A program made the position numbers and the translations under genes. Under the pieces are notes generated by a model that searched no databases, had not been told where the DNA came from, and saw nothing but the letters and a program-made list of their open reading frames with translations. Of a stretch of 64,000 nucleotides of DNA, positions 41,205-46,654 are shown in pieces. Positions within the stretch are counted from its first letter, which is position 1. The number at the start of each line of letters is the position of its first letter. Origin of the DNA: Halichondria panicea (lineage: Eukaryota > Porifera > Demospongiae > Suberitida > Halichondriidae); NCBI RefSeq assembly GCF_963675165.1, contig NC_087383.1, forward strand, positions 3,130,979 to 3,194,978. Reading direction: 5' to 3'.

Positions 41205-41375
41205 TGGTACGTGACCATAATGAGGTATCGGTAGAGTCGATAAAGAACAGGGGTGATCACAGAGGCGAGGCCCAAATCAGGGGAATATCTTCCAAATCTT
41301 CCGGGTCTTCTAATCTTTCTGTTGATGACCTCAATCTCTTCAGAATATTTATATCAGCTCCACACAGATATTGAG
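41205..41375 (-). pseudogene. Broken copy of the Death-GTPase first exon
   Basis: On the minus strand this segment matches the first coding exon of the gene at 42,472-46,654. EDPEDLEDIPLIW corresponds to DQDLEDDIPLVF, and the following bases match CTCTGTGTTGATCACCCCTG with a 2-base loss that shifts the frame. A larger deletion removes the residues in between. It continues into VLYRLY- and MVT-like text. The rest of the gene is not nearby, so this is a partial, dead duplicate. Confidence 0.75.
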
Positions 41376-41876: not shown

Positions 41877-41929
41877 TTAATGGTCTTCTTTGTCCTCTCT
41901 CTTCAAAGGTATAGTTGATGGATTGGACT
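41877..41929 (-). CDS. Possible alternative last exon of the Death-GTPase gene
   Basis: The stop of the main gene (AAAGGTTAG) overlaps a donor-like GTTAGT at 42,477. Splicing from there to an acceptor at 41,930 (CTATTTTAAG) would be in phase and add ESNPSTIPLKREDKEDH before a TAA. This gives a short charged tail in place of a single Gly. The donor is weak and no RNA evidence exists, so the simpler reading is that the gene ends at 42,472. Confidence 0.3.
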
Positions 41930-42471: not shown

Positions 42472-45400
42472 CTAACCTTTTACTATCTCACAAATTTTTC
42501 TTGCTGTTTCGCCATCCTTAAATTTGAAGCAAATATCAACAAGTATGCGGTAGCTTGTGTTAAATTCTTTGTGCCAAATCTCCAACACCTTTTGACACTT
42601 CATTTCATAATCTAAGTTATTGTCAACGTTAATACCTTGAATTTGTGCTTTAGATAGCAGAGCCTGAGCATACTTCAGCCAGTTTGGAAGAAATCGACCA
42701 ATTTCCTGCAAATCTTCAGACGAGCAACGATGATCAAGTACTTCTTTCTTGATACCCACTTCCCTCGCTATCTCGTCGACAGTTAAATATTTATCTTCTT
42801 GACTTTTGGGATGTTCACCTTTCTTTACGAACCAAATCAAATGTTTATTTTTTAACTCTCCATTACATTCATCAGGTTTTTCGGAACAAACCCAAGTATA
42901 ATAATCAACATTAATCTCAGCGTGATGACTTTTAAAAGCAGCTTCAGCTACATGAATATATGGACAGAAGAAACAGAATTCTGGGTCATCAATTGAATAA
43001 TGAAGGGCTTTCTGAGAAGCTCTAATTCCTTCCGAAATGTCTTCCTTGATTTTTGGACAAAGGTGTTCACAAATTCTTTCGGGGGCTTTCACATACACTT
43101 CTATGTGTGTGATGGAATCAACAAGAGTTACAAAACACTGATCCTTTTGATATCTAAGCTTAATGCAGTTTCTTGCTTGAGGCACTTGTTCTCTCAACTT
43201 ACTGTACCTTTCCCACCCACATGTTTTCATTAAGAACACCACCAGACAGCAGAACACCCCAGCTCGGATGCAGCCATTGGTGAAGCGGACAAGAAGTGGA
43301 TCGACTGAGGGCTCGTGGTTACAGCAGTTTTTCAGCTCAGCTTGTGGTATAGATTTAAGGAGGGCAGGCATAAAGAATTGAGTAGGTTCGCCTAACGGAG
43401 GAGTTGTGAGAGGAGTTATCAATAAAAGTTTTTTCATGAGCTCTATCATATGAATAGGAACAAAGATATCATGACCATCATTATCACGATACCGAAAGTG
43501 CTTCTTAAACTGCACAGACTGTAGCATATCAAGTGTTAGGATGCCACCATCTCTGAACAATTTCCACTTAGGATCCATTAATTGAGTTGCAATTGAAGCA
43601 TCTTCACCACCTTCTCTCAAAGACATCGCATATCGAACAAGATCATTGATTATCTCTAGGGGTATCTGGGGGTCTACAAAGACAATTCCAGGCAGTTTCT
43701 GCGGATAGTAATGGGCAATGCAGATTTTGTCGAAATAATCAAGAGCAAACTTTAGGTCATCGGCATCCGACTGTAGTTCTTTAGCCACAGATATACACTC
43801 GCTTATAGTGAGAATTCGTCTCTCAACTTTAGTGCAGAACTCCTGCAAGGAAAGCTCCAGAGCAAACCACCGGAATGGAACTTTGTCTTCAAAAAACGGA
43901 GACTCTTCCACGGCATTTCGAATAGCTTGTGCAATAGTTTGCGTGTCTTCATCTCGAGATATTGCATTCAAAGCAAGAATTTGTTGGGTCATTTGTCTGT
44001 CCCTGTATACTCTAAAACATTCAGGAATCAACGCACGGAGTTCTTCATTTTTTTCCTTGAGGATTGCAGACAGAACTGAAGGATCCTCGATTAAGTCTTT
44101 GAATGTGCCAACAAAGATGCATCGTGGCTTTTTTATATGTGTGTTCACCGACAGAAGAGATTGAATGAGGCTAAGAATAGTTTCTCTATGTGACATGTGT
44201 GAGAGAGAAGGAGTACCGACTTGCTGTCCTCCTACATAGAATTCATCAGAGGGATAATCGTTAAACTTGTCGGTGAGTTTCATTACGTACACACCAGCTG
44301 ATGTTCCTCGTGTAAAAAGAGGTGCAATATCGTGAAACTGTGGTTGGCCTCCACTATCGGTAACACGTATCGTCATGGTTCCAAACAATTCTTCGCTACT
44401 TTCATGTACGCTTGTTAAATCTGCTATTGCACTTATTTCCTCAAGGTCATCAACAACAGCCTTAACCGCTGCTTTAGTTACAATTGTTTGAAGCAGTGCA
44501 GCGCTTGTACTCTTTTTATCAACATTGTGTAATGAAGGCTTGGATTGAGAAATAACTAGAGAAAGACATTTTTTCAGGTCTTGTGGGGTAATTTCCTTCC
44601 ATTCTTGGCCTTTGCACGTAGCATGCATATGGTGATTTTCTACTGATCGGACCTCGATGGTTTTATCCAAAGGAGGTGTGCTATTTCGTTCTGTCTTTGT
44701 CTTTGCTTCCTTATTCAATACAAGATCTTTAACACTCGTCTTTCCACTGCCAGCAGGTCCCATAAGAATAACATTAACAGTTTTTACACTGACGAATCCA
44801 GCCTTCATTGCCTCTTCAAAGTGCTGTTTAAACCCTAAATTTTATCAATGACTTCATTAAAAGATAGTCTCAATTTAGTTACATGTAGTAATTGTTTATA
44901 GTGGAGAGTCATATTACTTTCATTTATGACATGTATAATTATACTGCGTATGTGTTTCGTGTATGTAAACATTATTGTAACACAAAGATAATTATACACT
45001 TGACTGTAAGCAGCTCATATACTGCATGCATAAATAAGGTATTAATTTTGAAGGGTACCCAAAGCACATAATAGCCTCTTATCAGTAGTTGTGTATACTG
45101 CATGTATCTCTATCACTATATATTAATTATATCCACACAAACTACTGATTATATAGCTCACTCACTGGTTGGTTCAGGATTCGTTGCGGACAATTTTTGC
45201 CTCTTAGGTGGCCCAGGCGAAATATCGTCAACTGAAAGTAAGTAATTGGCAATTGACTAAAGTATACCTATAGTATTCCATCAAAGTTACATCGCCTTTT
45301 GTAACGCCATCATTCTTGGATATTACTATATAGGTTGTAGTATGTGAACTATCCATTCACTTACTGAAGTACTGTTGACTAATCATTATAGAAATGCTTA

Positions 45401-46654
45401 TAGTGTGGTCAACTATATACTCATACCTAAATATTCCTCCTCTATAGCTTCAGCGACATCATTCTGTCCAACTGTTCTGAGGCTCTGATATATTTCAGAA
45501 TAGGTGAGAGTGGCAGTTTTTAAGCGAGCAGTTAGCATTTCAAGTAGACAGGTTTGATTATCTCGATGTGTATCCCTGATATTTCTGAGGATGTCATAGC
45601 TCACTCCCAGAGCAAGTGCCAGGTCAAACCAGTTTCCAGCGGCTTTTATCACTGTCCCGTAAACAGACTGCAAATCCTCAAGAGTCAGAATTGAAGCTAC
45701 AAAAAATATTAATTGCTATTGAGTAGGTACAATAATCTCATATACATGCATGCATGCACACTGGTGGTTTACATGTGCATGCTAGCTGATGAGTACATAA
45801 TTATAGGAGACATCGCTTACTAAAAGTTGGTCCAGGGTTTGCTTCAATGTCTCCAGACTGTAAAAGTAAGTGGAATATCAGCAACAGTAGACACAGACTG
45901 AGAGTAGGGGCCAACATCAGTCGATTAGTGCTCTGAACTCTCACTTGGATCTTGGTCGGTGTGTCTTGAGTAGCAAGAATAACGTTAATACTTATTGTGG
46001 CTTATTATAATATATTTGATCACCTGATGTAGTGCAACTGAACTGAAAGTTGGATTGTTTCCGAGGGTTCCATCTCACCAAGCAGGTAGTGATGAGTGAG
46101 TAACAGGCGATCAGCACAGCTGACAGAATGAGAACGGCCAGGGCACTCTCCCTCCATCCCACCTCACAAGGAAACACTCCGGTCCAACTCAAGTCAACCA
46201 CAGGACAGTAATCAAGATGTGAGGGAGCTGTGTAGAGTTACATAAATCATGTGCATTGACAACACAGTTGCATGTGGTCATGACTCAAGCAATACACTAG
46301 CAACGTACTTATATTATATCATGTGGCGCCTATGCGTACTCTAGCTGTTAATTAAACTACTAGTCTACATTGTGTATAAATGAATGCTAATATTGGCAGT
46401 ATGCTCAACTCACATGAAACAATTTGGCATGGTTTCTTTGAGAAGATAATATAACCGATGGTGACCATAATGAGATAGAGCCGGTAAAGGACAGGGGTGA
46501 TCAACACAGAGGTGAGGCAGGCTTTGAGCTGCCAACTGGGCTTACGGAAAACCAGGGGAATATCATCTTCCAGATCTTGGTCGTTGTAGGGTAGTTTGAT
46601 TTTTGGAGACCATTTTATTTCAAAGGATGTTGTCAGTGTTGATGACCACTGCAT
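42472..46654 (-). CDS. Membrane-2A-Death-Roc-like GTPase-Death protein
   Basis: Six exons, all joined in phase 1: 46,414-46,654 (ATG), 46,024-46,227, 45,821-45,964, 45,427-45,696, 45,166-45,231 and 42,472-44,834 (TAG); 1,095 codons. Residues about 45-70 (LITPVLYRLYLIMVTIGYII) and 103-125 are membrane segments. Residues 165-183 form a third hydrophobic stretch leading into SGDIEANPGP (185-194), a full 2A motif (DxExNPG/P). After it come a Death domain (about 198-286), a basic PPKRQKL linker (294-300), a GTPase with P-loop GPAGSGKTS (334-342), DSGGQPQF (468-475) and a GTFKD G4-like motif (551-555), then a long helical region and a second Death domain (about 990-1,095). Ribosome skipping would release a 193-residue membrane protein and a 902-residue cytosolic or nuclear protein. 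Roc/Death proteins act in innate-immune or cell-death signalling; that role here is inferred. No LRRs were seen. Confidence 0.8.
45828..45917 (-). other. 2A ribosome-skipping sequence with hydrophobic lead
   Basis: Coding bases for residues 165-194 of the Death-GTPase ORF. The conserved D-I-E-x-N-P-G-P is complete, and the 19 residues before it are Leu-rich and helical, like the N-terminal 2A/signal sequences described in sea-urchin NLR genes. Met165 at 45,917 could also serve as an alternative start, giving a short 2A signal peptide instead of an internal 2A. Confidence 0.85.

Follow-up and report, generated by a model that had tools for sequence, protein, structure and literature searches.

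A stretch of 64,000 nucleotides from the demosponge Halichondria panicea (contig NC_087383.1, positions 3,130,979 to 3,194,978 of the forward strand; hereafter the window) carries on its minus strand what is quite probably a two-product, polyprotein-like gene of immune type, in which a 2A (StopGo) motif separates a hydrophobic module from a Death-Roc-COR-Death protein. Six exons splice into a single frame of 1,095 residues followed by a stop, with the 2A signature NPGP at residues 191–194. On sequence comparison, the gene appears to be one of a family of about 50 members, and paralogues place the same module and 2A ahead of several different kinds of downstream protein.

Architecture of the window gene

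The coding frame opens at an ATG at 46654, with an in-frame stop three codons 5′ of it in the list of open reading frames (ORFs). GT donors stand 3′ of exons 1–5 and AG acceptors 5′ of exons 2–6, and every junction is phase 1, including the two introns that flank exon 3. The features are, in window coordinates:

46414..46654, minus strand: exon 1; ATG, acidic N-terminus and hydrophobic segment 1 at residues 46–64; 31 copies among the 47 loci compared
46024..46227, minus strand: exon 2; Cys-containing loop CPVVDLSWTGVFPCE, hydrophobic segment 2 at residues 109–127, then RWNPRK; 47 distinct genomic copies
45821..45964, minus strand: exon 3; carries hydrophobic segment 3 and the 2A (LLLQSG-DIEANPGP) and is followed by a phase-1 donor, GTAAG
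45829..45851, minus strand: 2A/StopGo core DIEANPGP, with the predicted skip between G193 and P194 (the range omits the final base of the last codon)
45427..45696, minus strand: exon 4; N-terminal Death domain (Pfam PF00531, 24.1 bits, cut-off 22.6, residues 217–283)
45166..45231, minus strand: exon 5; short linker SPGPPKRQKLS, present in paralogues too
42477..44834, minus strand: exon 6; Roc GTPase, COR and C-terminal Death-like domain; end revised from 42472
41877..41929, minus strand: probable exon 7; ESNPSTIPLKREDKEDH and a stop, the first Glu codon being split with exon 6
41210..41320, minus strand: degraded copy of exon 1, EDPEDLEDIPLIW...VITPVLYRLYRYLIMVT (tblastn E 0.41 for 41210-41260, the remainder by eye)

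The original prediction, made from the letters of this DNA, had placed six exons in one frame across five phase-1 introns and a 2A motif inside the single ORF. The splice sites and the 1,095-residue join bear out the former, and DIEANPGP at residues 187–194 the latter. It had counted two membrane segments, where we find three hydrophobic ones, the third adjoining the 2A; this third segment need not be a membrane span, as it overlaps the L-rich motif that such a StopGo class itself uses. The gene end also moves. The stop at 42472 is probably intronic, because splicing from a phase-1 donor that follows 42477 to an acceptor that precedes 41929 would reach a seventh exon, putting the end at 41877 and bringing the product to about 1,111 residues. 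This probable exon is similar to the tails of the paralogue models P0001 (...IVKESKPSTIIG...) and P0002 (...IVKEYNLKRKRED...), and the window's terminal exon ends sooner than that of P0002. The degraded exon 1 copy lies just 3′ of the gene in the same orientation and suggests a trace of a former tandem copy.

The predicted order of Death, Roc-like GTPase and Death in the downstream protein holds for its first two parts and, for the third, tentatively and at the level of fold only. The first Death domain is called by Pfam, narrowly, at the score listed above. The Pfam Roc profile stays under its cut-off of 27, scoring 24.5 bits for the excised G domain and 20.2 bits in the whole protein, and Roc-COR is assigned via the fold of P0002, whose GTPase part folds as Roc plus COR. 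The C-terminal domain is a putative Death domain, recognised by fold and not detected by Pfam. The 8 Pfam families listed for the window protein include no NACHT and no match to kinase, leucine-rich repeat (LRR) or ankyrin, and profile A1 gave no match at 0.01 against PDB sequences. DAPK1 is a Roco protein, and DAPK has a kinase domain and ankyrin repeats. Sponge proteomes had been named as the place to look for the same domain order, and it recurs in one ORF of P0002 (LOC135347310, 1,100 residues), an independent NCBI paralogue model, where the Death domains are assigned by similarity to the window protein, Pfam listing none there.

A family with exchangeable downstream proteins

Searching the genome with the module gives 133 matches, which hold 47 distinct exon-2 copies once C14:1060251-1060775 is removed as a duplicate from the 48 exon-2-like matches. 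Contig C14 carries 37 of them, C2 carries 7, and C7 (the window gene), C16 and C6 carry one each. Every one of the 40 copies off C2 has, within 700 bp, an exon-3 match reaching residue 194 or further, and each of the 7 on C2 has a 2A site within about 0.65 kb (compared by eye). The letters of the 2A were read directly behind all 47. At seven further places exon 3 occurs without exon 2, and the NCBI proteins P0010 and P0158 are of that shorter kind. Nine NCBI models (P0001–P0009), from seven loci, join module exons 1–3 in frame to the 2A and an effector. Among P0001–P0069 the 2A is found only in P0001–P0010 (10 of 69), many of the others being unnamed single-exon-like ORFs incapable of showing it. 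A protein search with the module returned 10 matches, all from H. panicea, among candidates limited to relatives of about 602–1,916 residues that share exact words. NCBI labels the relatives found as single uncharacterized proteins.

What follows the 2A differs from model to model. The module precedes Death-Roc-COR in P0001, P0002, P0004 and P0005; Death-NACHT in P0003 (NACHT 73.4 bits), P0009 (70.1 bits), P0006 and P0007 (NACHT precomputed in both); and a ZU5-like protein in P0008, where ZU5 scores 17.7 bits, under the cut-off of 21. The short form of the module precedes dynamin-like GTPases in P0010 and P0158. In the seven paralogues compared, the first Death domain is 56–68% identical to window exon 4 over 95 residues. 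Module identity does not sort by effector type, the NACHT-type P0003 being 91% identical to the GTPase-type P0001 and 84–85% identical to the NACHT-type P0006, P0007 and P0009. The five closest Roc-COR relatives (78–81%) sit 0.8–6.6 kb 3′ of a module-2A copy (by eye, among the 50 scored of 875 candidates).

Individual loci vary in other ways. Between its 2A and its GTPase, L069 (C14:996300-1004800) shows four Death-like matches, and in that place the isoforms P0001, P0005 and P0004 of LOC135347306 have three, two and one (by eye). LRRs in the NACHT proteins were read by eye only. Intron 2 is open in frame in some C14 copies (for example, L070 and L071), and models P0004, P0005 and P0009 carry additional residues at intron 2 (CHNNYKRHSYFLVFDTQ), for which retained or alternative splicing is possible.

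Constraint on the 2A motif and the module

As DNA, the 2A pattern has a single match in the window, and 100 shuffles yielded none. The 131 Mb of genome searched contain 116 matches, where the window's base composition would predict 0.22, and a reversed control gives 0; the shuffles, the expectation and the control rule out a chance motif. In frame, the window motif has the core (D/G/C/N)(V/I)ExNPGP. By eye, rather than with MEME or FIMO, the LLLQSG before the D matches the L-rich StopGo class of PMC12846837, whose members have (A/S/C)G at the end. Within this class, motif 6 was active in vitro (PMC12846837).

We aligned 32 exon-3 copies, 26 obtained through module similarity and 6 being C2 loci (L015, L018, L019, L021, L023 and L027) that were retrieved with the 2A pattern and are biased for that reason. 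L015 was included on 2A similarity alone, has its first GT elsewhere and is perhaps outside the family. NPGP is kept in 32 of 32, and L-L-L, G, E, N, P, G and P never vary. Position 0 of the 2A is D in 30 copies and N in 2, the latter falling inside the expanded StopGo core of PMC12846837, and position 1 is V in 29 and I in 3. The free x position takes A (24 copies), S (6) or V (2), and synonymous codons differ across copies. A phase-1 donor follows directly after the 2A in 26 of 26 copies on C14, C16 and C7 (one of them GTACG) and in 5 of 5 family copies on C2.

Pooled ratios of non-synonymous to synonymous substitution (dN/dS) between the window and C14 are 0.44, 0.41 and 0.33 for exons 1, 2 and 3. 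Between C2 and C14 they are 0.22 for exon 2 and 0.14 for exon 3, with synonymous sites near or at saturation, completely so in exon 1. For exon 4, dN/dS may pit different Death copies against each other. Judged by these comparisons, the module exons 1–3 are under purifying selection. Selection and the paralogue gene models together rule out exons 1–3 as unrelated ORFs.

Other 2A sites in the genome

Of the 116 genomic sites, 100 were itemised and the first 30 (contigs C1–C5) were fetched with 1.5 kb on each side. Nineteen of these 30 have a same-strand downstream homologue of the family's first Death domain (E <= 1e-3), 6 more have a second domain only and 5 have neither. Four of these five (L012, L014, L016 and L028) start ORFs of 186–499 codons with a PHD-like Cys/His pattern, resembling long interspersed nuclear elements (LINEs) by eye, and their L-rich 2A resembles that of the cellular genes. 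Sixteen of the 30 sites have a GTRAG donor no more than 60 bp from the 2A, always in phase 1. Run on ten ORFs 3′ of other 2A sites, Pfam gives Death under cut-off in 2 and nothing in 8; tblastn nonetheless ties most of those loci to the family's Death domain. In the C1 and C2 families, the second of the downstream domains has no known fold by the searches made (best E 0.14 in a PDB profile search, nothing relevant in Pfam) and is CARD-like by eye only.

Upstream of these sites, the hydrophobic segments fall into several mutually unlike groups in BLASTP of single exon pieces, a grouping that overstates the number of unrelated modules, as it also splits the window from its C2 relatives, which other comparisons link. 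Four sets of loci (L033-L038 on C5; L009, L029 and L032; L013, L030 and L031; L010 and L011) combine another kind of hydrophobic segment with an L-rich 2A, downstream of which lies a Death exon or one that is CARD-like by eye. L072 and L017-L027 (C2:7.74-7.84 Mb) are diverged relatives of the module with DVESNPGP, followed by a CARD-like domain (except in L023) and sometimes also by a Death exon.

Proposed mechanism and alternative explanations

We infer the following course for skipping, membrane insertion, topology and partnership. A single mRNA would be translated from exon 1, and the hydrophobic module would go to the endoplasmic reticulum (ER) and insert. At the L-rich 2A the ribosome would free a 193-residue membrane protein and restart at Pro194, making a soluble, cytosolic Death-Roc-COR-Death product of about 900–920 residues. 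The ribosome exit tunnel holds 30–40 residues (PMC2978324), and segment 3 with the 2A measures about 30, so that segment 3 would still be in the ribosome at skipping, with the first two segments out. In sea urchin, recoding leaves the downstream protein in the cytosol, and the fused form takes the exocytic route (PMC4981915). Together with the tunnel reasoning and the translocon findings given below, this leads us to expect a released module, cytosolic Death-Roc-COR-Death and some fused secretory product, the minority read-through chain entering the secretory route and not the cytosol. The cassette, consisting of the module and the 2A exon with phase-1 intron borders, would have been copied ahead of varied Death-headed effectors (Roc-COR, NACHT and ZU5-like), and in its shorter form ahead of dynamin-like GTPases, and each effector would thus be made alongside a constant membrane partner. 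An immune role is suggested by the Death and NACHT relatives and by the size of the family.

Several observations weigh against a gene with two products. The module has no Pfam match, and its predicted structure is of low confidence. For the window copy, protein searches brought up only the exon-6 ORF P0011 and no full-length NCBI model, and the NCBI models P0015 and P0070 of relatives are without the module. Pfam does not call the first Death domain in P0002, P0003, P0008 and P0009, where it rests on similarity to exon 4, and in P0001 it assigns part of that region to a UBR1-like wing (27.8 bits against a cut-off of 27). Inside C14, pooled dN/dS is higher (0.70, 0.45 and 0.44 for exons 1, 2 and 3), and the saturation of the C2–C14 comparison counts on the same side. 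Finally, 2A can be inhibited when the upstream protein is targeted to the membrane or engages the translocon (PMC2978324), and under such inhibition the fusion could be the main product.

Taken furthest, this last point would make the gene encode a membrane-anchored receptor, its translocon-inhibited 2A mostly inactive in vivo and its main product one fused multi-pass protein. Strong inhibition of 2A, dependent on the residues immediately upstream, is seen with artificial ER-targeted proteins (PMC2978324), and sponges have been suggested to possess transmembrane NLRs (PMC12909245). We nevertheless hold such a receptor to be unlikely: the residues for skipping are kept in all 32 copies, 6 of them motif-fetched, while x varies, whereas a plain linker needs none of them, and a chain with its N-terminus in the cytosol and three membrane-spanning hydrophobic segments would have Death and GTPase on the lumenal side. 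The same topology makes doubtful the earlier suggestion that read-through yields a membrane-tethered GTPase. We give little credence to separate transcripts, in which module and effector would come from different promoters, starting in exon 3 or later, and the joint ORF would seldom be translated. A start in exon 3 would yield a short signal-2A leader of the sea-urchin kind, and the window copy does have a Met shortly before segment 3, with the module-less P0015 and P0070 in keeping with such starts; but that Met is missing (NRPPTLS) in 14 of 24 aligned C14 copies, models P0001–P0009 connect exons 1–3 to the Death exon, and the donor after the 2A is conserved. It seems very improbable that the module is a spreading 5′ cassette with no protein function of its own, for example a relic of 2A-bearing retrotransposons. 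The LINE-like ORFs with a similar 2A would suit such an origin, as would the near-likeness of exons 2 and 3 among C14 copies (pooled dS 0.047 and 0.074), yet dN/dS in exons 1–3 is below 1 and lowest in the deepest comparison, and distant copies retain frame and splice phases.

Relation to known systems and significance

The two-product gene that we favour has its nearest known case in the sea-urchin SpNLR2A genes (Roulston et al. 2016, PMC4981915), which share a hydrophobic stretch immediately before a D(V/I)ExNPGP 2A, Death-type signalling proteins downstream, a large immune-type gene family and the presence of 2A in non-long-terminal-repeat retrotransposons of the same genome. In sea urchin, the 2A lies at the N-terminus or close to it (26 residues in the 14 NCBI entries named), whereas the sponge core begins at residue 187, behind a module of about 190 residues under its own selection, and among the proteins downstream of the sponge 2A are Roc-COR, NACHT and dynamin-like types. 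An internal 2A after a conserved module, with exchangeable effectors, is different from the sea-urchin NLRs, and the layout would be new for animal immune-type genes. The original description of the layout as unusual agrees with the internal 2A but is incomplete: the gene has many relatives, and its module also precedes proteins other than GTPases.

Viral StopGo/2A polyproteins share the core octapeptide and the L-rich class of upstream motif, with (A/S/C)G just before D (PMC12846837), but belong to RNA viruses, whereas the sponge copies lie in spliced nuclear animal genes. Compared with Roco proteins (LRRK1/2 and bacterial and archaeal Roco), the sponge protein differs in having no kinase, LRR or ankyrin match, in its Death or Death-like domain at both ends and in the 2A-linked membrane module upstream. 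The NLRs of Dysidea avara are likewise demosponge NACHT proteins with membrane segments in the same gene model, but have been interpreted as 'putative membrane-bound NLRs' (PMC12909245). The main text of PMC12909245 contains none of 2A-like, NPGP, 2A peptide, StopGo or skipping, and that of PMC8242945, on H. panicea immune receptors, neither '2a-like' nor 'npgp'. In PMC5009743, PMC5972666 and PMC11512398, the passages with 2A terms concern viruses, retrotransposons, sea urchin and NLRs, with no mention of sponges, and titles and starts of abstracts among the open-licence papers listed gave no report of 2A in sponge genes or NLRs.

Tentatively, and with more doubt than confidence, we suggest that 2A skipping may serve this sponge as a general format for paired immune genes. 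Several different membrane modules, each with an L-rich 2A at its end and in many cases a phase-1 donor too, would be linked to signalling proteins of the Death fold. Each sensor or effector would be made in equal number with a membrane partner, and the membrane-docked ribosome would set the ratio of fused to free product, which would act as a switch. StopGo is described as used 'only rarely in cellular genes' (PMC12846837), yet one animal genome holds 116 matches to its DNA motif. If these motifs are active, one animal mRNA would give a stoichiometric pair of a membrane and a cytosolic protein, some sponge gene models of a 'membrane-bound NLR' may be two proteins, and the family would offer a direct test of whether animals regulate 2A skipping.

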